A stretch of DNA of 34,508 bases, from positions 1 through 34,508 of the forward strand of contig JAKLFA010000003.1 in NCBI GenBank assembly GCA_022711395.1, given 5' to 3'. A model generated the notes under the pieces. The model ran no database searches and was not told where the DNA came from. It saw only the letters and a program-made list of their open reading frames with translations. Position 1 is the first letter of the stretch, and every line of letters starts with the position of its first letter. The translations under genes were made by a program, and so were the position numbers. Shown here piece by piece: positions 5,319 through 29,475 of the stretch. Source of the stretch: Candidatus Omnitrophota bacterium. Its GTDB lineage: Bacteria; Omnitrophota; Gorgyraeia; Zapsychrales; JANLHA01.

Positions 5319-6632
5319 CTAGGGGTTAACGACTTCGATCACTCGATTAAGCGTGCTGGCGTTTCCGTGATCATCATGCGCCAGGACATAGACCCGGTAC
5401 AATCCGGGTTTTTCCGGAGCGTTTATGAAGGTTTCAGCGCCCCCTGTTCGGACATCCAGCGGAAGTTCGTCGTTAGGGAATTCGACCAATCCTACCTCGT
5501 CACTGGAAGTGGAATAAAAATATTTAAAATGAATAACACCGTCATGTTCCCTTGCCAACTTGGGCATTATAGAAAATTGCTCTCCCGGTCTTAACCCAAC
5601 GGTTTTGCTGAGAACCAGGCTTCGAATGGAAGGAAGCGGATGCTCGCTTTTGATACCCGTGAGCATCTCTTTAACCGCCCAAAAGGACGGCTTTTTGAAC
5701 TGCTTGTAATTAATGTTCCACCATGTGGCACTGACCTGGGTCGTCTCTCCCAAATGAAAAACGAACGCGCCCAGGCAATAGCCTTTCAACATTTCGATCT
5801 CTTTCGTGTAGCGCTTGTAAAAATACACCTGTGATTCATCCGTTGGTTCGACCGGCTTGCCGAAACGGTCCTTGGGCTGGTCCCAGTTACCGGGTGGACC
5901 ATATTCGGTGATCAAATACGGGATATCCAACGAATCAATGATCTTCTCATGGGCGGATTTGATCCCGCCGTAGACGTTCACACCGAGGATATCAAGACTC
6001 GGCACGTATTTCTTAATATACGGCACGGCGGTGGTAAAAGACGTCGCGTAAACAACCGGATGGTCCGGGTCGATCGCGTGAATATCCTGGATCAAACTTT
6101 CCAAAAAGCGCGCAAAGGCGACCCTCTCCGTTTCAGACTCCGTCCAGTAGATCGTTTCATTGCCGATATTCCAGAGGATCACGGCCGGATGGTCTTTAAA
6201 CTCTTTAATATATTTTAACGTCCGCCGTCTGACCTTGGCGCAGTAACTCTTGTCACGATAACTGCCATGATAGCCTTTACGGACCGGATTCAGCCAAACG
6301 CCGGCATCCACATAAAGCCCGTAGGCGTGCGCCGTATCCAAATACTGCCGGTCCCCCTGAACGGTCCCCCAAGTCCGCACGGTATTGGCTCCCAAGTCCA
6401 CCGCCATGCTCAAATAGTCCACCGCTCCGTCACGGCTTTGACGCCGGCCCACACCGGCCCCTTTGATATCAAAACGCTTTCCGTTGACGGTCAAATACCA
6501 GTCGCCTTTCACGCCCTGGATCCGCACGCTATTGGCGACCGCTTTCGGATGAGACGCCGTGGAACAACCGGTCAAGGCCGCTGCCAGGAACATCATGACA
6601 ACAAAATATTTGAATTGGAAATAACGGTTCAT
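5319..6632 (-). CDS. Secreted GH2-like (TIM-barrel) glycoside hydrolase, lipoprotein
   Basis: A 437-residue lipoprotein (lipobox LTGC, Cys23) with the catalytic barrel of clan GH-A, most like the glycoside hydrolase family 2 catalytic domain. GANTVRTWGT starts an early strand. DHPAVILWNIGNE carries the predicted acid/base Glu159, and IPYLITEYGPPG carries the predicted nucleophile Glu243. The full GH2 sugar-binding and sandwich domains are missing at the N-terminus; about 50 residues (SVRIQGVKGDWYLTVNGKRF) precede the barrel. A C-terminal beta-rich domain follows (about 335-437). The barrel parallels that of the large enzyme at 22850-25267 motif by motif, so the two are paralogues. AAGGA lies 11 nt before the ATG. 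It sits between leuS and comEA, where no such gene is expected. Substrate unknown; beta-glycans are plausible. Confidence 0.75.
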   Translation of the reverse strand: MNRYFQFKYFVVMMFLAAALTGCSTASHPKAVANSVRIQGVKGDWYLTVNGKRFDIKGAGVGRRQSRDGAVDYLSMAVDLGANTVRTWGTVQGDRQYLDTAHAYGLYVDAGVWLNPVRKGYHGSYRDKSYCAKVRRRTLKYIKEFKDHPAVILWNIGNETIYWTESETERVAFARFLESLIQDIHAIDPDHPVVYATSFTTAVPYIKKYVPSLDILGVNVYGGIKSAHEKIIDSLDIPYLITEYGPPGNWDQPKDRFGKPVEPTDESQVYFYKRYTKEIEMLKGYCLGAFVFHLGETTQVSATWWNINYKQFKKPSFWAVKEMLTGIKSEHPLPSIRSLVLSKTVGLRPGEQFSIMPKLAREHDGVIHFKYFYSTSSDEVGLVEFPNDELPLDVRTGGAETFINAPEKPGLYRVYVLAHDDHGNASTLNRVIEVVNP

Positions 6633-18558: not shown

Positions 18559-19569
18559 TTATATCCGTTTAGGCGCCGCGCATGAGTCACGAACGACCAA
18601 CTCAGGAATGAGGACTTTTTGAAAGGGCTGTTTTTCTTTCTGCAGAACGATCGCGTTGAGCATGCGCACGGCCTCTTCCGCCATTTGAAACAACGGCTGA
18701 TGAATGGTGGTCAATGACACCTGCCCATAGAGCGAATCCGGATTATCATCAAACCCAATCACAGACATATCATCCGGGACCTTAATCCCCCGCTCGTTCA
18801 AAACTGCCAAGACCTCAAGGGCCATGTCATCGGATGAGGCGAAGATCGCGGTCGGAGGATTGGGCAATTCCAGTAATTTCTCTGTCGCAATGCGCGCACT
18901 GCGCCGCGAATAATCACCCTCCTGACACATCTCATCCGAAAGCTCGCCAAAAGAATCCAGGATCCTTCCACGAAAACCTTCCAGCCGGTGCTGGCCGGAT
19001 TGGGTCTGAAGATTCCCTGTGATAATGGCGATCCGTTTATGACCAAGCTGGATCAAATAATCCGCTGCCGTACGCCCCCCGGCAACATTATCGATCCCGA
19101 TATAGTTGATCATCATATCCGAGACGATATTATTGATCACCATGCAGGGAATCCCCGCGGCGGAAGCTGCTTCGATCTGGCGACGATTCTCAATAATATC
19201 GGCAAAAACGATCCCGCCCACGCTACTGGTGTTCAGGTCATTGAATCCGTTGGTAATATGAAAAACAAGGTCCAAACGCAGTGTTTCACAAGCATGCCCA
19301 ACGCCACGAATAAGCTCAACGGCATAAAAAGAATAAAAGATGCCGGGATAGCCCGGCATCACAAAACCAATCGCATTATTCAGACCTCGCGCCAAACGCT
19401 GCGCGTTGGCATCGGGCTCATAGTTTAAAGCTGCAATCGCCTCTTCAACTTTCGCCTGATTTCTTGGACTGACGGTAGGAACATGATTAATAACACGTGA
19501 AACGGTCGTGATCGAAACACCGGCCCGTTTCGCAACATCCTCAATACCGACTCTTCTCTTTTTGTTCAC
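18559..19569 (-). CDS. LacI/GalR-family transcriptional regulator
   Basis: A 336-residue repressor-type regulator. Residues 7-30 form the helix-turn-helix (IEDVAKRAGVSITTVSRVIN), followed by the hinge helix region with NYEPDANAQRLARG. The periplasmic-binding-like effector domain follows, with YIGIDNVAGGRTAADYLIQL, RIAIITGN, AIFASSDDMALEVLAVL and VIGFDDNPDSLYGQVSLTTI. The start is GTG with GGAG 7 nt upstream. It follows the coiled-coil gene by 20 nt. It lies at the downstream end of a carbohydrate uptake locus on the same strand, the likely target of its control; the effector sugar is unknown. Confidence 0.92.
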   Translation of the reverse strand: MNKKRRVGIEDVAKRAGVSITTVSRVINHVPTVSPRNQAKVEEAIAALNYEPDANAQRLARGLNNAIGFVMPGYPGIFYSFYAVELIRGVGHACETLRLDLVFHITNGFNDLNTSSVGGIVFADIIENRRQIEAASAAGIPCMVINNIVSDMMINYIGIDNVAGGRTAADYLIQLGHKRIAIITGNLQTQSGQHRLEGFRGRILDSFGELSDEMCQEGDYSRRSARIATEKLLELPNPPTAIFASSDDMALEVLAVLNERGIKVPDDMSVIGFDDNPDSLYGQVSLTTIHQPLFQMAEEAVRMLNAIVLQKEKQPFQKVLIPELVVRDSCAAPKRI

Positions 19570-19589: not shown

Positions 19590-20840
19590 TTAACGTACAG
19601 CATCGCCAACTTGAATATCCGTTACACGACTGATAATATCGGCGGCCGCAATGTCCTTGCGTACTTGGATGACCTCAAGACCGGCGATATATTCCGCCTC
19701 GCGGTAAACATTAAGGGTGTCGCCAGCTTTTATACCTGAATTCTCTCCGATATCAATAATAACGAAATTGTTCTCTTTATTGACGGAAACAATGTTTCCA
19801 TCGATCCCGGGCGCGTTCGGATTTTTTGCTTTTTCAAAATTCTGCGGGTTTTCCGCAGACGAAACCACGATAGGCGCCAGCTCCACACCGCTTCCGGCTT
19901 TAGCCCCAGGCTTAATGGTCTGGTCCAGGCTCTGTTTGATCTGCCAGATCTCATCAATACGGCCCTGAATGACGTTCTCAGTCTCCATCAATTTCTTCTC
20001 GACAGATTTCTTTTCATCCTGAATGCGGACGATGCTTTTTTCAAGGGCGATCTTCGTGGATGTCAATTGCTTGATCTGCTCGCGCAAGCCATTGTTTTCA
20101 TCATTGATCTTCATCAGTCGATCATTCAAAAATTTCTTGTCATTCTGCGCGCGCGCAAGCTCCAAAGACAAACTGTCGGAAAGGTCTTTGCCATATTTGA
20201 TTTCGCGCTCGATCTCTTCTTTCTGATGCACGAGCTGGCTCAACTCCAACTGAAGATCGGAATTCTTCTTTTTTAATTCCGTGACCGCCACTGTCCCTTC
20301 AGCAAGCTTGCCTTTTAATTTTTCGACCTCAAGCTCCAAAGCCGTTTTTTCCTTCAAGACCTGGGCCCAATAAAGATCCTCGCTGCCACTGACAACCGGA
20401 GCGGCGGCCGTTGTGGTCTGCTGCTCTTCCGGTTCAATATATTTATAAACGATCTTTTCCTTCGGCTTCTCTTCCAGTTTCACTAAAAGATCTTCACGCT
20501 CCTTTTTCAAAGACTCGACCTTGGCCTTCCAGTCATCCCTCTCTTTTTTAAGACCGTCCAACTGCGCGTTCAAACTGTCAAGATCAACACCTTCCAGGGC
20601 TTTCAGCTTTTCTTCGATCTCAGCCCTGGCCTTCTCCGCGGTGGCGAGCTGTTCTTTGATGGCGTTCGTATCGACGATATACTTTTTTTCTCGCTGGGCG
20701 TACTGTTCGATCTCCTGCTCCAAAGACACCTTGCTTTGAGCGATCTGCTGTTTTTGTATGCTGACAAATGCTCCATATGATAGAGTCAGAAAAAGGGCGC
20801 CACCTAAAAATATAATCATAAGTTTTGCGGCTTTTGACAT
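19590..20840 (-). CDS. Membrane-anchored long coiled-coil protein with a C-terminal beta domain
   Basis: A 416-residue protein. One N-terminal membrane helix (about 7-28) is followed by some 280 residues of nearly unbroken coiled coil rich in Lys, Glu, Gln and Leu, interrupted by a Thr/Ala/Pro-rich stretch near 135-150. A linker follows, then a compact beta-rich domain (about 350-416) with GNIVSVNKENNFVIIDIGEN and GIKAGDTLNVYRE, a pattern seen in FlgT-C-like or ribosome-barrel-like domains. The topology suggests an envelope-spanning structural or tethering protein. AGGAG lies about 11 nt before the ATG. It is likely cotranscribed with the LacI-family gene. Function unknown. Confidence 0.75.
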   Translation of the reverse strand: MSKAAKLMIIFLGGALFLTLSYGAFVSIQKQQIAQSKVSLEQEIEQYAQREKKYIVDTNAIKEQLATAEKARAEIEEKLKALEGVDLDSLNAQLDGLKKERDDWKAKVESLKKEREDLLVKLEEKPKEKIVYKYIEPEEQQTTTAAAPVVSGSEDLYWAQVLKEKTALELEVEKLKGKLAEGTVAVTELKKKNSDLQLELSQLVHQKEEIEREIKYGKDLSDSLSLELARAQNDKKFLNDRLMKINDENNGLREQIKQLTSTKIALEKSIVRIQDEKKSVEKKLMETENVIQGRIDEIWQIKQSLDQTIKPGAKAGSGVELAPIVVSSAENPQNFEKAKNPNAPGIDGNIVSVNKENNFVIIDIGENSGIKAGDTLNVYREAEYIAGLEVIQVRKDIAAADIISRVTDIQVGDAVR

Positions 20841-21125: not shown

Positions 21126-21770
21126 TCACTCGTATTGAATATTGTCCAAATAAAAAACACAGCTCTCAGGATTCACCTTTACACTGGTCGACCAAGAAAA
21201 ACCACCGCTAATATAAGAAAGGTCCTTCCCCCTCAGGTCAATCGTGTACTGGCGCCATTCATTGGTCAGGATCACTGGGCCGATCATGGCAGAATCCGAG
21301 TCTGGATAATCCCCTCCTGAGATCCCCCCGATCGTGACCTCCTCAATCCGTTCTCCCCCCTTTTCGCCTTTTGCCCAAAACGTCAGTTTCTGGGCACCCG
21401 TAAGATCGAAACCGCCTTTCCGGGACCCCCAGTTATTCGCTGGGTTCAACCAATAGATCCCAGCCCACTGCTGATCGTTGCGGGAGCATTCCACATCATA
21501 GACCACCTTGATGCAGGAACTGCCCTCATAACACCCCTCCTGCCAAGCATCATTAAACTCTAGGCACTTTCCATTCGGCATGAACCCAGAAGCAACATAG
21601 TGGTTGTCCCGAGTGCCTTTGTTATGATAGACAATGAACGGCTTAAACTTAGATTCTTCCTGAACGGCCGCAGCAGAAGGCGCTGCCGCCTGCTGTTCCG
21701 TTTTCGGCTTTCCGCAACCCGTGATAAACAAACCAAGCAAAAAACACACGAATACTTTTTTCGACACCAT
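21126..21770 (-). CDS. Lipoprotein with a putative carbohydrate-binding jelly-roll domain
   Basis: A 214-residue lipoprotein (lipobox ITGC, Cys19) with an Ala/Gln-rich linker. A single beta-sandwich-like domain follows (about 45-214). It contains QQWAGIYWLNPANNWGSRKG, LTGAQKLTFWAKGEKGGE, NEWRQYTIDLRGKDLSYISG and a final CVFYLDNIQYE. The Trp-rich middle, W-x-x-Y-T-I-D-L and the terminal FYLDNI strand are typical of galactose-binding-like carbohydrate-binding modules. ATG 21770 with GGGGGGA just upstream is preferred to TTG 21782. A terminator separates it from the preceding repeat-protein gene. Likely role: holding glycan at the cell surface; ligand unknown. Confidence 0.65.
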   Translation of the reverse strand: MVSKKVFVCFLLGLFITGCGKPKTEQQAAAPSAAAVQEESKFKPFIVYHNKGTRDNHYVASGFMPNGKCLEFNDAWQEGCYEGSSCIKVVYDVECSRNDQQWAGIYWLNPANNWGSRKGGFDLTGAQKLTFWAKGEKGGERIEEVTIGGISGGDYPDSDSAMIGPVILTNEWRQYTIDLRGKDLSYISGGFSWSTSVKVNPESCVFYLDNIQYE

Positions 21771-21803
21771 CTTTCCCCCCAAACATTTTGCATCGGATTA
21801 AAC

Positions 21804-21870: not shown

Positions 21871-22734
21871 TTATTCAGACATCTCGGAAAGTTTCCCCTG
21901 AGCAGCATCCGCCGGTTTCCAGAACCAGCCTGTCGTGCCATCACCGGGATCCCAGCATTGGGCATAATAGAATTCATCAACCAAACGCTGAAAAGCCTCT
22001 TTGGCTTTTGCCATATCCCCGGCCCTAAAATACGCCTCTCCTAAAATGAACAACGACGCGCCAACATCATTGAGCGCCCAATAAGAAAAAATCTTCTCAT
22101 TGGATTCCCAAGGATATTCCGTCAAAGAGTTTTGCATCTCTTTGGCCTTCTCCTCATAAAGTTCCAGGTTCTTAGAAACATACGCTTTCACAGAATCCAG
22201 ATCTTCGGCCGCCAAGGCATCCCAGGCTTTGGTCGTCAGCGTCGATGATTTATAATCACCGTAATCAATTTGTGATCCGCTTTCGATCATCGCTAATTTT
22301 TCTTTGGCAGCTTCCGCCGGCTTCCAGAACCATCCACCGACATCCCAGCACTGGCCATAGCCAAATTCCTTAACCACTTTCTGATAAGCCGCTTTAGCCT
22401 CTTCCTTCATGCCGGCTTTTCGATAAGCCTCGCCCTGAATATAATAGCCGGTAGAAACATCATTCAATGCCCACATCTTAAAGATCTCGGCATTTTCTCC
22501 AGCCACATAATCCGTTAGCCCTTCCTGCATTTCCTTGGCCTTTTTTTCATACAATTCAAAACATTTTTTCGTATAGGCCATTACCGCATCCATATCTCCC
22601 GCTTCAAGCGCTTGCCATGCCTTGCTGATCAAAGTCGACGACTTGTAATCTCCGTAATTATAGGCATGCGCGGGTGTCGCCACCAAGGCAAAGCCTATAA
22701 TACAGGCAAGAGCTCCCATTAAAACTTTGTTCAT
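21871..22734 (-). CDS. Secreted protein of two tandem 131-residue Trp-rich helical repeats
   Basis: A 287-residue protein: a signal peptide (1-24, ATPAHA), then two copies of one unit, residues 27-157 and 158-287. Each opens YGDYKSSTL, has ELYE-x-KAKEMQ-x-x-LT, then WALNDV, GEAY and a TPR-like AKxA helix. Each closes with QCWD and a WFWKPA-x-AA-x-x-KL motif. By hand, 62 of 105 ungapped positions are identical; copy 2 has a 4-residue insertion (GDGT) before its WFWKPA. The unit contains one recognisable TPR-like helix pair, but the whole is not a known domain to me. AGGGAGG lies 8 nt before the ATG. It follows the GH2-like enzyme, which carries the same unit. Confidence 0.8.
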   Translation of the reverse strand: MNKVLMGALACIIGFALVATPAHAYNYGDYKSSTLISKAWQALEAGDMDAVMAYTKKCFELYEKKAKEMQEGLTDYVAGENAEIFKMWALNDVSTGYYIQGEAYRKAGMKEEAKAAYQKVVKEFGYGQCWDVGGWFWKPAEAAKEKLAMIESGSQIDYGDYKSSTLTTKAWDALAAEDLDSVKAYVSKNLELYEEKAKEMQNSLTEYPWESNEKIFSYWALNDVGASLFILGEAYFRAGDMAKAKEAFQRLVDEFYYAQCWDPGDGTTGWFWKPADAAQGKLSEMSE

Positions 22735-22849: not shown

Positions 22850-25267
22850 CTACTTCTTAGACTGCCCCGTCCACATCTCTTGATAGGCGAAATAAGCTTC
22901 CCGTAACTGCCTTAAAAACGGACTATGCGTGCCATCGCCCTGCCCCATGATCCCGAACCATTCCTCAAAATAATACCCTCCCGGGAACGGGCCGATCGCG
23001 TCCGATTTACGATCATGATAAAACGGCTCATAATTCTTCCACCACTCATCGATCGACTGAAAGACGACCCCGCCCAAAGCGTTCCCGACCCCATCTTTAG
23101 TCCCGGCCAGATTAGCTTCAATGTCCATCCAGTTGCCACGATGATACAAAGCCTGCGCGTGCTCTGCCTCCTCCATGGTCATATGGCGGGCATACGCAGG
23201 CGATCCGAATTCTGTAATAAAAGCGGGCTTTCCGGTCGCATCCTGGACCTGCTCCCAGAAAGCGCCGAAGCCATAATTCCCCCGATAGACATTGGCCGCA
23301 TAAATATCCACATCCGGAGCGTGTTTCCCGACAAGGTCCAAATAAAGAGTGTCACCGTTACAGACCGCCACCGGATGGTCAGGATCAATGGATTTGATCA
23401 TTTTAGCCACCTCATTCACAAACTGATAATACGCTTCAGGTTTTTGGTCCGCGTTGGAGGCCACCCCATAATTATTCTCATTTCCAAGAAGCCAAAGCAA
23501 AATATACGGTTCGTCCTTGAATTCCTCAACCATCCGCCGGACAGAATCCATCATGTTCTTGCGATGTTCTTCCTTTTCATAATCCGTGCCCTCAAACCAA
23601 CTGGCCCCTGAACCCAAGGTGTATTTTCCAAGGAAGTCCCCTAAAATGACCATGAACCCATACTGCTCATGCATCTTTCGCAAAAGTTCTTTATTGGGCT
23701 GAAATGGCTGATGATACTCACGGATCGTGTTAACGCCCATTTCTTTCAGGATCTGAAAATCTCCGACCGTCGGCTCATCACCATCCTGAACATTATTCTT
23801 GTTTTTATCGACCCAAGCGTCGTAAGGCCCGTCCGCCAAACCGTTGCCATTGGTATCCTCATACATCCAAGACACGAGCGTCCCGTTATCAGGGCTCTGG
23901 CCGATCTTGGTCGGGGTATATGTGATCCCATGGATCACGTACGGCTTTCCGCCGACCAACAACTGCCAATGGCCGTTGGAATATTTATGCAGTTGGACAC
24001 GTCCCTGGCCGCGGACCTCAACCGGCTTTCCCAAATTTATATCTTTCTGGATCCATTGTTCAACGGCTTCCTTCATCTGATCCCACTTGGTCTTTTTATA
24101 GATCACTCCCGGATAGGTCACGATCACATCGTTACCAATATCATTATCGAAACCGTTCTTGACCTGTGATTTCATCCATTTGACGCCCAATCCAAGCTCC
24201 GGGTGAAACCGTATAAGATATTTGATCTTGCCGATAGCTGCCTGCGCAGGATACCACGGCGTATTCCAACTGGTCCAGGCGACAGCCTGAGGAAAATGGA
24301 CCACAATGGCGTGATACGCCTTGATGGCCTCATAATACATGCCGGCTTTTTCATAGATCATGGCGATATAAAAAAGCTTAACGCCCCACGGCTCCTTGGC
24401 GGTGATCCATTTAAAAAGCGCCGCCTCCAGATCATCGCTATGAACAGAATCCCAATGGGAGCCTTCCAGGCGGCCTTCATCCTTTGCCTTCCGATAAGCC
24501 GGGTTCTTGAAGACCGAATTCGTATCCGGATAGATCCCCTCTCCGACTGCGTCTTTCAATTCCTGCAAACGGTCGATCTTATATTGATAATCTTTGCTGC
24601 CGACATTCTGGAATTCGCCATACTTGCGATAATCCACGACCTGCTCTTTGCCCGGAAAAGCCAAAACCGGAAGCGTTCTCAGCCGCTCCGGATCAACATC
24701 ATGGTCCGGCTCCTCCACCTTACCAAGCATAACATCGATGCTTGCCTGACTTTTTTCTGCGATCGACCAATACCATCCCCGGGGATCCCAAGCCCTCGCG
24801 AACGGATAGTCCTTGATCAGATTTTCAAAAGCAGCCACCGCATCTTCCGTCCGCCCGTATTTCATCAGCGCTTCCGCCTGTATGAACAGCAGCGTCCCTA
24901 CATCATTCAAAATAATATATTCCTCATGCTGCGTGGTCGCCGGAAATTCACTGAGCGTCGCCTGCAGAGCCTTTGCTTTCTCCTCATAAAACGAAAGGGC
25001 TTCATCGACCAGAGCGTTCAGTTCCTCCAATTTGGCCTGACCGGAAAGCTCCCACGCCTGACGCACAAACTCTTTTGTTTCTTTGCCGGCGATCTGTTGA
25101 CTAAGCATGGCGTCCTTGATGACTTTTGTTTCTTCCGCCGGGGCCTCTTGCTTTTCGCTTTCCTGAACGGCCATCTCCGGAGCTTCCTGGGCCTGGGACA
25201 ACGGCAAAAACCCTACACCACACAAAAGAGCAACTGCTGATATGATCGATAGATTTTTAAATTTCAC
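22850..25267 (-). CDS. Large secreted GH2-like glycoside hydrolase with N-terminal Trp-rich helical repeats
   Basis: An 805-residue secreted enzyme. Signal peptide 1-26 and an acidic linker come first. Residues 67-180 are a copy of the repeat found in the neighbouring protein (LNDVG, AEAL, then AWDPRGWYWSIAEKS). A second, partial copy at about 296-348 ends AWTSWNTPWYPAQAA. The catalytic part begins near 420 (GRVQLHKYSNGHWQLLVGGK, YVIHGITYTPTKIG). DTNGNGLADG and DKNKNNVQDGDE (471-498) look like paired calcium loops. The barrel has LLWLLGNENNYG with predicted acid/base Glu597 and PAFITEFGSPAY with predicted nucleophile Glu686. The GTG start overlaps the permease stop (GTGA), tying it to sugar import. 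Family 2 is the best guess; substrate unknown. Confidence 0.78.
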   Translation of the reverse strand: MKFKNLSIISAVALLCGVGFLPLSQAQEAPEMAVQESEKQEAPAEETKVIKDAMLSQQIAGKETKEFVRQAWELSGQAKLEELNALVDEALSFYEEKAKALQATLSEFPATTQHEEYIILNDVGTLLFIQAEALMKYGRTEDAVAAFENLIKDYPFARAWDPRGWYWSIAEKSQASIDVMLGKVEEPDHDVDPERLRTLPVLAFPGKEQVVDYRKYGEFQNVGSKDYQYKIDRLQELKDAVGEGIYPDTNSVFKNPAYRKAKDEGRLEGSHWDSVHSDDLEAALFKWITAKEPWGVKLFYIAMIYEKAGMYYEAIKAYHAIVVHFPQAVAWTSWNTPWYPAQAAIGKIKYLIRFHPELGLGVKWMKSQVKNGFDNDIGNDVIVTYPGVIYKKTKWDQMKEAVEQWIQKDINLGKPVEVRGQGRVQLHKYSNGHWQLLVGGKPYVIHGITYTPTKIGQSPDNGTLVSWMYEDTNGNGLADGPYDAWVDKNKNNVQDGDEPTVGDFQILKEMGVNTIREYHQPFQPNKELLRKMHEQYGFMVILGDFLGKYTLGSGASWFEGTDYEKEEHRKNMMDSVRRMVEEFKDEPYILLWLLGNENNYGVASNADQKPEAYYQFVNEVAKMIKSIDPDHPVAVCNGDTLYLDLVGKHAPDVDIYAANVYRGNYGFGAFWEQVQDATGKPAFITEFGSPAYARHMTMEEAEHAQALYHRGNWMDIEANLAGTKDGVGNALGGVVFQSIDEWWKNYEPFYHDRKSDAIGPFPGGYYFEEWFGIMGQGDGTHSPFLRQLREAYFAYQEMWTGQSKK

Positions 25268-26163
25268 CTCGACAACCTTCCTTCCTTTAAAAGATCAATT
25301 TTTGACGGCTCTCCAACAGCAAGGATGTGTTTCTGCACAAAAAGATATACCAAAATGATCGGAACGGCTGCGATCGTTAAGCTCGCCATAAGAAGAGGAT
25401 ATTCGACATTATGCGTGTCCGCAAAGACCATTACACCTCGCTGTAACGGCATGATCGTAGGCTTTCCTGCAACATCGTTCAATAAAAGCCTGGCCAAAAG
25501 ATATTCATTCCAAACATTCAAGGCATTAAAGATCACAATGACCGCAATCGCCGGACGAGCCAAGGGCAGGGCCACATGCCTCCAAATGCCCATTTTATTA
25601 CAGCCGTCAATGCGCGCGGCGTCCTCAAGATCTGACGGCATTTGATCAAAAAACGTCTTTAAAAGAAACACGCTCAGCGGCAGCCCTACGTTGATCATGC
25701 ACAAAATATAGCCCAGCTGTCTGACCCATGAATACGGCGAATTGATAAACCCGATCTTCGTCATCAGGACCGTCAGCGGGACAAAGCTTCCCGGAAGCGG
25801 GATCATCACAGCTAAAATAAATAACACAAAAAACAGCTTCCTTCCAGGGAATTTCAATCTGGAGAACGCATAAGCCGCCCATGAAGAGATCACGACGATC
25901 CCGAAAACAACAATGGTGGTATAAACCACACTGTTTAAAAAATACCTCCCGAACTGCCCTTGCGTCCATGCCCTTACGTAATTACCGAAATGAAGCCGCG
26001 AAGGGATAATGGATTGGTCCACAAACACAGCGTCCTGGGTCATGAGCGATGAACGCACCATCCAAAACAAAGGAAACAGGCACGTAATCGTTACCGTGAT
26101 CAACAGCGCCTGAATAAGCACAAGCTTGGTCAGCCTTCGGATTTTATATGGATTCATTCCCAT
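25264..26163 (-). CDS. Sugar ABC transporter permease (MalG/UgpE type)
   Basis: A 299-residue inner-membrane permease with six predicted helices. The EAA loop that contacts the ATPase reads EDAARIDGCNKMGIWRHVAL from about residue 180. The family openings LFPLFWMVRSSL and FLNSVVYTTIVVFG are present. AAGG lies about 8 nt before the ATG. It follows the other permease by 21 nt and overlaps the GH2-like gene by 4 nt. No ATP-binding protein is encoded nearby, so it probably uses a shared MsmK/UgpC-type ATPase from elsewhere. Confidence 0.92.
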   Translation of the reverse strand: MGMNPYKIRRLTKLVLIQALLITVTITCLFPLFWMVRSSLMTQDAVFVDQSIIPSRLHFGNYVRAWTQGQFGRYFLNSVVYTTIVVFGIVVISSWAAYAFSRLKFPGRKLFFVLFILAVMIPLPGSFVPLTVLMTKIGFINSPYSWVRQLGYILCMINVGLPLSVFLLKTFFDQMPSDLEDAARIDGCNKMGIWRHVALPLARPAIAVIVIFNALNVWNEYLLARLLLNDVAGKPTIMPLQRGVMVFADTHNVEYPLLMASLTIAAVPIILVYLFVQKHILAVGEPSKIDLLKEGRLSR

Positions 26164-26184: not shown

Positions 26185-27207
26185 TCAGATCCGCTTGATA
26201 CGGTTCTCCATCTTTTTAAGGGCGGCCGACAGTGCGATCAAGATCGCTCCGAATGTTACCCCCATCGCGCAGGCGTAACCGAACTCCTTGGTCCTCATCA
26301 TCGCCGCCAAAATGCGGGTCACAGGCACCTCCGTATGGTATCCCGGCCCGCCGTCCGTCATAGACAAAATCAGAACAAATGCCTGCATGGACCCCAGGAT
26401 CGTCAAGATCACGACAACGATGATCACCGGAAGCATCATGGGGACCGTGATATTCCAGAACGTTCGCCACGCCCCCGCCCCGTCGACCTTGGCCGCTTCA
26501 TAAAGTTCGCGATCAATGGTCTGAAGGCCGGCCAAGAACATCAAAAATCCCCAGCCGAACCCTTTCCAGCTATGCACGACCGCAATACAGGTCAAAGCGG
26601 TCTTCGGGTCCGACAGCCAGTCATTTACCAGATGATGCAGGCCGATCGCATCAAGACAATGGTTCAAAAGCCCATAATGCTGGCCGTTCTGCACGCCGCC
26701 TTCCAGGATCCATTTCCATATCAATCCGACGACGACCTCTGAAAGGACCGGCGGAATAAAAAAGACCGCCCTGTAAAAATGCTTTCCCCGGATCTCACGG
26801 TCGCAGGCCATGGCGAGCATGAACGCGAGGGCATTCTGAAATGTCAAAGCGACCAGCGTGATATAAGAGGCGTGCCACACCGACCTCCACCAAACCTCGT
26901 CATAATTCAGACTTAACGTTCCAGCTGCCAAAGATTTCAGCCAATAGATGACAGACTGCCACCAGGTCAGGTCAGCAGGCTGTTGTGAGGCCATTAAGCT
27001 CAAAATATCAGAAAAATTCCTGAAACCGACAAACAACTTGGCAGGGCCGATACCGTTCCAGTCCCTCAAAGACAGATTAAACGTTTCAAAAAACGGATAA
27101 ACATAAAACACGGCAAAGATCGTGGCGGCGGGAAGAATAAACAGAAAGCTGGACAGCCTGTCTTTGACCTCATACCATGAACGGTGTTTAAGATTGATCT
27201 TGGGCAT
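26185..27207 (-). CDS. Sugar ABC transporter permease (MalF/UgpA type)
   Basis: A 340-residue inner-membrane permease, partner of the next gene. LFILPAATIFAVFYVYPFFE is the first helix with the classic P-x-x-x-x-E-F-like end. NALAFMLAMACD and AVFFIPPVLSEVVVGLIWKW follow, and the EAA loop is YEAAKVDGAGAWRTFWNITV. The periplasmic loop after the first helix is longer than in many relatives (about 60 residues, IGPAKLFVGF to SLNYDEVWW). It lies 23 nt after the binding-protein gene, in the same operon. Confidence 0.92.
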   Translation of the reverse strand: MPKINLKHRSWYEVKDRLSSFLFILPAATIFAVFYVYPFFETFNLSLRDWNGIGPAKLFVGFRNFSDILSLMASQQPADLTWWQSVIYWLKSLAAGTLSLNYDEVWWRSVWHASYITLVALTFQNALAFMLAMACDREIRGKHFYRAVFFIPPVLSEVVVGLIWKWILEGGVQNGQHYGLLNHCLDAIGLHHLVNDWLSDPKTALTCIAVVHSWKGFGWGFLMFLAGLQTIDRELYEAAKVDGAGAWRTFWNITVPMMLPVIIVVVILTILGSMQAFVLILSMTDGGPGYHTEVPVTRILAAMMRTKEFGYACAMGVTFGAILIALSAALKKMENRIKRI

Positions 27208-27230: not shown

Positions 27231-28529
27231 TTATTGCGCCCGACGAATCGCGCGCTCCATCTGCCTTTTCTTGATCTCCTGGACCTCCCGCGCGACCTCC
27301 TGCGGGGTTCGTTCGCCGATAATGATCGACTGCAGTCCCTTGGTGAACTTCTCCTTCACGACGGCATCCTCCTCGATCGGCCACACCGTCTGATGGGTCA
27401 CAACGTCCATGGCCTGTCCGAAATCAGCCAGCTCTTTCGGAAGATCGGCAAGCGCGTTTCGATTTGAAGGAAGATTGCGTGTCGCCTCAGAAAGAACAGC
27501 CTGCTGATCCTGGGCGGTCAGCCATTTGAGGAACGCGACCGCTTTTTCCTTTCGCGGAGATGTTTCATTGACCACCAGCGACCCGCCGGCCCCTCCCCAG
27601 ATCATCAAAGGATGACCATCACTGATCTTGGGAGGAAGCATGACGCCGTAATCCAGATCCGGATTCATTCCATGATAAACATTCACGCACCAGGACCCAT
27701 TAAAAGCGAATGCCGCGCGCTCTAATGCGAAATCCTGCTCGGCGAATTTATTAGACTTGGTCACGATCCCGGAAGCCAAGATGTTCTTCTGCGCCATGAC
27801 CGAAAAGATCTCAAAGACCTTGACCCAATCGGGATCGGTATACAGGACCTCCCCCCGATAAGTCGCCATGATCTTATCAATGCCCATGATATTGAACGCA
27901 TAATTCGAAGCAAAGCAATCTAGCAACCACAGCTCCGCCCAACCGGAAACGAACGGTGTAATACCGATCTTGTTCAACGCCTCAGCAGCTCTTAAAAATT
28001 CATCAAACGTTTTCGGAGGACTAACAACGCCGGCCTTCTCCAACAACTTTTTGTTATAGACCATTTGAATGTTCATAACATCCAATGGTGCCGCATAAAT
28101 CCCCTCGGCAACGCCGTACGCATTATTTGCGGAGAACCGGTTGCCTTCCAAGGCTTTCTCAAAAAAACTGTTTTCCCATTCGCGGCCGTTCTCTTCAAAA
28201 TACGGTTTGAGGTTCGCCACAAAACCGCCCTTAATAAAATCCGCGAACACGGACTTTTTATCTAAAATGCCGAAAATATCAGGAAGAATATGCGCTTGGG
28301 CCGCAGCAATGACTTTTTGAGAATAAATGTCGGAAGGTGCGAATAATTGAAAATCGACCGTAATCCCTGTTTGGGCTTTATATTGTTCAGCTAACTGAAC
28401 AAGGACATCGTGCCGGTCAGTCATCCAATGCCACACAGTGAGTGTGTTGGGGTCTTCAGGGGTTCCTGCGCATCCTGAATAAAGGAGAGCAAAACATAAA
28501 ACAATAAGACAAGCCAATCTCTTGCTCAT
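27231..28529 (-). CDS. Extracellular sugar-binding lipoprotein of the ABC transporter
   Basis: A 432-residue family 1 solute-binding protein. The signal peptide ends LYSGC (Cys20), so it is lipid-anchored. NTLTVWHWMTDRHDVLVQLA, GITVDFQLF, YSQKVIAAAQAHILPDIFGI and PLMIWGGAGGSLVVNETSP match the maltose/oligosaccharide-binding class (SBP_bac_1). AAGGATTT lies before the ATG, and a good promoter stands 46-74 nt upstream. It is the first gene of the transporter operon, as expected for the most abundant component. The ligand cannot be told from sequence; the downstream GH2-like enzyme suggests a beta-linked oligosaccharide. Confidence 0.92.
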   Translation of the reverse strand: MSKRLACLIVLCFALLYSGCAGTPEDPNTLTVWHWMTDRHDVLVQLAEQYKAQTGITVDFQLFAPSDIYSQKVIAAAQAHILPDIFGILDKKSVFADFIKGGFVANLKPYFEENGREWENSFFEKALEGNRFSANNAYGVAEGIYAAPLDVMNIQMVYNKKLLEKAGVVSPPKTFDEFLRAAEALNKIGITPFVSGWAELWLLDCFASNYAFNIMGIDKIMATYRGEVLYTDPDWVKVFEIFSVMAQKNILASGIVTKSNKFAEQDFALERAAFAFNGSWCVNVYHGMNPDLDYGVMLPPKISDGHPLMIWGGAGGSLVVNETSPRKEKAVAFLKWLTAQDQQAVLSEATRNLPSNRNALADLPKELADFGQAMDVVTHQTVWPIEEDAVVKEKFTKGLQSIIIGERTPQEVAREVQEIKKRQMERAIRRAQ

Positions 28530-28728: not shown

Positions 28729-29082
28729 TTAATTGTCATCCTGATCAGAAATGAGCTTGAAGATCCGTTGGGTTTGCATAAAATTCACCCGGTGGAATTC
28801 CATGCCGATATCCCACAGATTAGGCGCCTTCGATTTGAGCCACACAACACGACCGTTAAGAATTAACGGGCTTTTTCCATCGGGAAGGTCGACCATCAAT
28901 GAAACACTGTCATGCAAAAACATCCGTTTCGTAGTCGTGAAACGTGCCCCCTGCGCAGATGCATCCCTCAAGAAAACATCGCTCCCATAGTCCTCCCTGG
29001 AATAGCGGAACTTCACCGGAAATCGCGCATGGAACCGGTCAAAAAGCCTTTTATCTTTTTCTGTCATGGATTCTTGTTCAAT
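28729..29082 (-). CDS. PilZ-domain protein (second of a pair)
   Basis: A 117-residue single-domain PilZ protein, a class that often binds cyclic di-GMP. The N-terminal arginine motif is loose (KRLFDRFHARFPVKFRY), while the second motif is good (LRDASAQGARF, D-x-S-x-x-G). A later strand pair ends VVWLKSKAPNLWDIGMEF, typical of the fold. ATG 29082 has GGAG 6 nt upstream and overlaps the stop of the other PilZ gene by 5 nt. No effector domain is attached. Confidence 0.8.
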   Translation of the reverse strand: MEQESMTEKDKRLFDRFHARFPVKFRYSREDYGSDVFLRDASAQGARFTTTKRMFLHDSVSLMVDLPDGKSPLILNGRVVWLKSKAPNLWDIGMEFHRVNFMQTQRIFKLISDQDDN

Positions 29083-29404
29083 CATGACTTTCTCCAAAAA
29101 ACGTATTTAATTTTCCTCTCGATCCGGATGAAAGGACTTTAATAAATTTTACTCCTAAGCGGTAGGTCCCCGTCTCATAATTTCTACGCACCCAGCGAAC
29201 CTCCCCCATGACAAGGGCCGGATCTCCATCAGCGGTCAAATCCACTTCAACGGCAATCTGTTTATGGACCGGGACTTTTTTGGAAGAAACCAAACCCAAT
29301 CCGCCCTTTCCGATATCGAATGTGCACAAACCGTTGAACGAGCTCTGTGTATTCGCCTCAACAGGAACAAAGCATTGATGTCGAACCGCTTTCCTGTGTT
29401 CCAT
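29078..29404 (-). CDS. PilZ-domain protein (first of a pair)
   Basis: A 108-residue PilZ protein. HRKAVRHQCFVPVEA gives the R-x-x-x-R motif (read as RKAVR), and FDIGKGGLGLVS gives the D-x-G-x-x-G version of the second motif, with Gly where Ser is usual. VMGEVRWVRRNYETGTYRLG and VKFIKV finish the barrel. ATG 29404 is chosen because GAGGGG stands 7 nt upstream and the predicted promoter overlaps the longer start at 29449. It overlaps the next PilZ gene by 5 nt, so the two are translated together. Confidence 0.8.
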   Translation of the reverse strand: MEHRKAVRHQCFVPVEANTQSSFNGLCTFDIGKGGLGLVSSKKVPVHKQIAVEVDLTADGDPALVMGEVRWVRRNYETGTYRLGVKFIKVLSSGSRGKLNTFFGESHD

Positions 29405-29447
29405 CTCATGCCCCTCTAGTAATAGACTTACTTCAGTTCTCAATTTC

Positions 29448-29475
29448 ATTTTATACCCTGTTTTTTGAATTGCAA
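29448..29475 (-). promoter_or_regulatory. Candidate promoter of the PilZ pair
   Basis: On the minus strand TTGCAA (29475-29470), 16 nt, TAAAAT (29453-29448). It supports the shorter PilZ start at 29404. Confidence 0.45.

Follow-up and report, generated by a model that had tools for sequence, protein, structure and literature searches.

The exported glycosidase encoded at 22850..25267 and its neighbour, a free exported protein of 287 aa (21871..22734), were found to contain the same repeat unit, which is a TPR variant rather than an unknown fold and is marked by a Q.WD..GW[FY]W β-hairpin that is conserved. With evenly balanced confidence, we read this unit as an accessory coupling module for the uptake of β-glucan oligosaccharides, acting together with the enzyme and an ABC importer encoded in the same operon. 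The window, meaning the whole stretch of DNA analysed, comprises 34,508 nucleotides of contig JAKLFA010000003.1 from a Candidatus Omnitrophota bacterium, and all features given here lie on its minus strand unless stated otherwise.

The enzyme (805 aa) is a glycosidase of clan GH-A that carries TPR modules at its N-terminus. Its open reading frame begins with GTG and overlaps a permease stop by 4 bp, and its Pfam matches were to the GH2_C TIM barrel (E 9.6e-13) and to TPR_6 (E 1.4e-8). A complete TPR/Trp-hairpin unit, U3, occupies residues 62-181 (24725..25084; hhalign, unit HMM 163 bits) and is followed by a middle region (residues 190-423; 23999..24700) that is also present in relatives lacking U3, whose alignment to the enzyme starts at around residue 185-205. 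This middle region includes U4, a partial and divergent unit made up of a TPR hairpin and a Trp motif (residues 294-354; 24206..24388; hhalign, HMM), and the catalytic TIM barrel extends over residues 424-800 (22868..23998). On the plus strand opposite the enzyme, long open frames of 228, 166 and 345 aa between 22925 and 25240 look like shadow ORFs. The free protein (TPR_6, E 3.5e-12; AF2) consists of two units, U1 (22285..22662) and U2 (21886..22269).

The initial annotation had proposed that residues 67-180 of the enzyme follow the repeat of its neighbour. In line with this, U3 was homologous end to end to U1 and U2, and the enzyme motifs it had listed were all found within a residue or two of where it had placed them, namely AW at 71-72, YEEKAKALQ at 94-102, LNDVG at 120-124, AEAL at 131-134, AWDPRGWYWSIAEKS at 159-173, AYHAIVVHFP at 317-326 and AWTSWNTPWYPAQAA at 330-344. 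Smith-Waterman alignment of enzyme residues 50-182 with both repeats gave z = 27-30, a score reached by none of 500 shuffles, and hhalign returned a probability of 100 over 116-118 columns for both U1/U3 (E 1.9e-43) and U2/U3 (E 3.8e-44). When the unit HMM was run against the whole genome, the only strong matches were U1 (181.7 bits), U2 (176.4 bits) and U3 (163 bits); those that came next after U4, at E 0.05 and 0.25, resembled generic TPRs, and other TPRs scored at most 14.5 bits. Chance or composition as the source of the likeness among U1-U3 was thus ruled out by the shuffles and the whole-genome search.

A second, partial copy had been placed at residues 296-348, and it was recovered as U4 in a weak, divergent and partial form. 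Here, Smith-Waterman alignment with the repeats gave z = 8-9, hhalign a probability of 93-95 across only about 57 columns, corresponding to the Trp motif plus the final TPR hairpin, and the unit HMM an E of 7.4e-4 in the whole-genome search; in paralogous enzymes, U4 scored up to 24 bits. It is possible that, for U4, the sharing is limited to the TPR hairpin. As for the four Trp closing motifs reported within 3.4 kb, the span held, whereas the fourth motif (TSWNTPWYP) is divergent and lacks the WD.

The fold of the unit was then considered from structure predictions, with AlphaFold2 (AF2) run on alignments of window and fetched-locus sequences. The free protein was modelled as a helix-turn-helix fold (mean pLDDT 92.6), in which the first unit comprises a helix (32-44), a long helix (48-71), a short helix, a TPR pair (88-106/110-123), a two-strand hairpin (129-137) bearing WD..GWFW and a helix (139-152), the whole order then being repeated. 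A corresponding order was predicted for U3 in the enzyme, with helices at 64-76, 80-103, 111-136 and 140-153, a hairpin at 158-168 and a helix at 169-180. Different folds for the two proteins would have spoken against the proposed kinship; since a common fold was predicted for enzyme residues 64-180 and the free protein, the claim survives. TPR_6 matched both proteins above its curated cut-off of 26.3 (35.3 and 46.5 bits), a TPR Pfam match was present in all 72 relatives of the free protein, and the best Foldseek matches of the latter were TPR or TPR-like helical repeats only, and weak (E 3e-3 at best). No family model other than generic TPR ones covers the unit. Across 85 units, A66, D131 and W137 were invariant, and W40, N91, Q128, G134 and W130 nearly so.

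Both genes belong to a conserved locus, in which the usual order is solute-binding protein (SBP), two permeases (permF, permG), enzyme, free TPR protein, lipoprotein, coiled-coil protein, LacI regulator and gidA. In the window, these correspond to a sugar ABC solute-binding lipoprotein (27231..28529; SBP_bac_1, E 2.6e-34; synteny), a MalF/UgpA-like sugar ABC permease (26185..27207) and a MalG/UgpE-like one (25264..26163; both NCBIfam and synteny), a β-sandwich/CBM-like lipoprotein, usually next in the operon (21126..21782), and a LacI-family regulator (18559..19569; LacI and Peripla_BP_3 Pfam, synteny). The lipoprotein had no Pfam match, and its relatives matched CBM_4_9/CBM60 below threshold. 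A coiled-coil protein with an FlgT_C-like tail (19590-20840) is kept between lipoprotein and regulator. Two overlapping PilZ-domain genes lie upstream of the SBP gene (28729-29097 and 29078-29449; Pfam E 3e-10 and 2e-9), as they do in many relatives, and a c-di-GMP link to the operon is possible. The transport link predicted by the initial annotation is borne out by the importer genes of the operon.

Enzyme and free protein were encoded on the same strand in 62 of 80 loci fetched across the order, the remaining loci being free paralogues elsewhere or contig ends. Each of the two queries was matched in 52 of 54 related genomes of the order and unmatched in the same two, some of the repeat-protein matches being fragments or just the unit within the enzyme itself (G052). 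Almost all relatives with a name were Candidatus Omnitrophota, Ca. Aceula and Ca. Zapsychrus among them; in MAGs labelled Candidatus Auribacterota (L134, L139), free proteins have as many as four units in tandem.

In the phylum, the unit was present in 162 of 285 genomes. Among the matches listed outside the order, it was mostly a single copy in a frame of 750-850 aa, that is, the enzyme; there, the module is usually fused without a free copy. A survey of 117 genomes of the class (cut-off E <= 1e-60) found the enzyme in 69: 42 enzymes were fused to U3 (one in two pieces), 25 started at around residue 190-205 and two were fragmentary. Among the loci whose enzyme starts after U3, L161-L167 have a separate one-unit TPR gene that abuts or overlaps the enzyme gene, with lipobox-like signals on both split proteins in L162-L164, and L144, L145, L147 and L148 have a free protein of two to three units beside a two-domain enzyme; the others had no module gene nearby. 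In these last-named four loci, the frames of about 1200-1260 aa join a short and a long glycosidase copy. The enzyme tree placed all fused forms and the split f13 loci in one group (94), and in a short-alignment unit tree (126 columns) the U3 units of the order made up a single clade (95), with the free proteins of several units also grouping together (91). One fusion of adjacent genes, with the tandem free copy added later, fits these trees, although the unit tree does not resolve the order and number of fusions and fissions. Taken together, the single sequence family, the predicted fold, the shared operon and the exchange between fused and split forms uphold the view that enzyme and free protein have a dedicated module in common. 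By contrast, the expectation that an HMM of the unit would find further secreted hydrolases failed, as what it found were orthologues of the enzyme, the partner protein from the operon and paralogues of the free type, and no unrelated hydrolase family with the unit was among the matches listed in the profile search of the 285 phylum genomes.

Concerning the catalytic domain, the label 'GH2-like' given earlier had to be revised, since GH158 endo-β-1,3-glucanases were nearer by both sequence and fold. Searches of PDB sequences (phmmer/hmmsearch; 9oro, 6pal) ranked GH158 first, at 5e-12 with one sequence and 5e-15 with a profile, followed by GH2, and the top six Foldseek chains were GH158, with GH72 glucanosyltransferases soon after. 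The best GH158 match, at E 5e-12, covers the barrel at only about 20% identity, and the closest Pfam model is GH2_C. GH2 as the best label was nevertheless rejected, given that the N-terminal sugar-binding and Ig-like domains are absent, TPR lies upstream, and only the PF02836 barrel was matched. The clan GH-A barrel carries Glu residues matching the acid/base and nucleophile of BuGH158: N596-E597 (23477..23482), the predicted general acid/base pair, aligns with N136/E137, and E686 (23210..23212), the predicted nucleophile, with E220. All three residues were invariant in 56 orthologues, and mutation of their BuGH158 counterparts abolished activity (PMC7157763). The enzyme also has Asp/Asn-rich loops (DTNGNGLADGPYD...DKNKNNVQDGDE; residues 471-498; 23774..23857), a sequence pattern that may form Ca2+ sites; D471, D479, G480, D487, N489, N491 and D495 were invariant in an alignment of 17 sequences. 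A second GH2_C-barrel protein (437 aa; 5319-6632), distantly related to the catalytic domain, is encoded in the window.

Operon neighbourhoods of relatives contain a GH94 phosphorylase (L148, L165, L179) or GH116 (L171, L176), and L165 a distant GH149-like protein (103 bits vs. a family cut-off of 1150); elsewhere in the genome of the window there are a weak GH149-like frame of 1092 aa and a GH94-like frame. Based on the likeness to GH158, the catalytic residues and these further GH genes, we infer that the substrate would be a β-glucan, probably β-1,3-linked.

In the reading that we prefer, the enzyme would act as an exported endo-type β-glucanase, probably on β-1,3-linked glucan, and its products would feed the ABC oligosaccharide importer of its own operon. 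The TPR/Trp-hairpin unit would hold the enzyme, the chain or the product, and the binding protein of the importer together, allowing fragments to pass straight from enzyme to importer, and the free protein would be a tandem pair of the U3-type module, supplied separately. The module was judged to have this coupling role because it is exported with the enzyme, is fused to it or free beside it, and accompanies the importer; its exchange among fused, separate and combined forms across relatives further suggests a working partner of the enzyme. Among 50 enzyme loci, module and importer occurred together in 26, neither in 20, the importer only in four (L169, L171, L176, L177) and the module only in none. 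As these loci were picked via unit or enzyme matches, not at random, and the tree holds about three changes of each trait, too few for a statistical test, the tally is suggestive rather than proof. Loci without the module mostly lacked the ABC importer too, and in four such loci of family f36 a GPH-type sugar symporter-like gene takes the importer's place, two being confirmed as MFS_2/GPH by Pfam/NCBIfam and the others recognized by length and N-terminal likeness only. Against the coupling role, we counted the four importer loci without module, the free paralogues far from any related glycosidase (none adjoined those inspected away from the operon), and the many family enzymes without the module, which also imply that catalysis does not depend on it. 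The weaker part of our inference is docking of partners by the module, as opposed to its holding glycan alone.

It is conceivable, at a lower level of confidence, that the TPR scaffold presents the Trp-rich hairpin as a carbohydrate site, with U3 serving as a CBM and the free protein as a binder in a SusD-like role. Conservation across the 85 units was strongest at residues that are in part outside the TPR consensus, aromatic and polar ones among them (W40, N91, Q128, W130, D131, G134, W137), sugar uptake is the operon's purpose, and TPR-based glycan binding has precedents in SusD-family proteins (PMC2954216) and in PgaA, whose TPR domain binds the PNAG polymer and makes the enzyme PgaB more active (PMC9384988). 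However, the conserved W, N, D and Q residues could just lock the hairpin onto the helices, and the operon already holds a CBM-like lipoprotein. Further, neither sequence families nor the 50 best fold matches included SusD: the free repeat protein did not match the SusD Pfam families, which were also absent from the listed 25 families that its 71 relatives matched most, and membership of SusD/RagB was rejected. As PgaA illustrates, a single TPR domain can serve for docking and for glycan holding alike.

We consider it rather improbable that U3 and U4 merely pack on the middle region and barrel for stability or folding, with the free protein serving an unrelated function. U4 does sit within a middle region that all relatives retain, but U3 is absent or separate in many of them, the separate form being encoded next to the enzyme, and a tandem free copy is maintained beside the enzyme across an order. 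Least of all do we credit an ordinary resemblance between independent TPRs, alike through convergence or composition, which for U1-U3 is refuted: TPRs are common and degenerate, and Pfam gives essentially TPR models alone, yet the homologous stretch is about 120 residues long and takes in the hairpin and helices outside the TPR (hhalign E 1e-43), and the rest of the genome's TPRs score at most 14.5 bits vs. 163-182.

To our knowledge, no member of the Omnitrophota has been obtained as an isolate, and little is known of what they use as carbon sources. An order-wide locus that ties a glucanase, a TPR module and an importer together offers a concrete, testable guess at their diet, and the natural exchange between fused and split forms makes enzyme-importer coupling by the module testable with small soluble proteins. 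A literature search on Omnitrophota glycoside hydrolases with tetratricopeptide found nothing on this system. We tentatively propose that the Trp-hairpin TPR unit could be an undescribed glycan-handling module of the Omnitrophota, fused on a GH158-like glucanase and supplied as a separate tandem binder, passing oligosaccharides to an ABC importer.

Several known systems resemble parts of this one. With Pfam TPR_6, every unit shares one hairpin of that type, but the unit is about 125 aa long, with extra helices and the conserved Trp hairpin. With GH158 (BuGH158, PDB 6pal; GH158(Pro), PDB 9oro), the enzyme shares the clan GH-A barrel and the N/E and E catalytic residues, and it differs in its low barrel identity, its N-terminal TPR and middle regions and its DxN-rich insert; the C-terminal Ig-like domain of BuGH158 had no counterpart in the predicted secondary structure, whose last helix is at 790-800. 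The GH72 β-1,3-glucanosyltransferases Gel4 and Gas2 are structural neighbours acting on β-1,3-glucan, but they are eukaryotic, 12-15% identical and matched by Foldseek only. SusD/RagB proteins likewise combine a TPR scaffold with added elements and are encoded with glycosidases in uptake loci; the module described here has no sequence or fold match to them, and its partner is an ABC importer where theirs is SusC. In the PgaA/PgaB pair, encoded in a single operon, a periplasmic TPR domain not only binds a polysaccharide but also contacts an enzyme that has a glycoside hydrolase domain, and stimulates it (PMC9384988). PgaA, however, belongs to an outer-membrane porin that exports a polymer made by the cell itself, while the module studied here occurs in an importer context, fused or free, and with a Trp hairpin.
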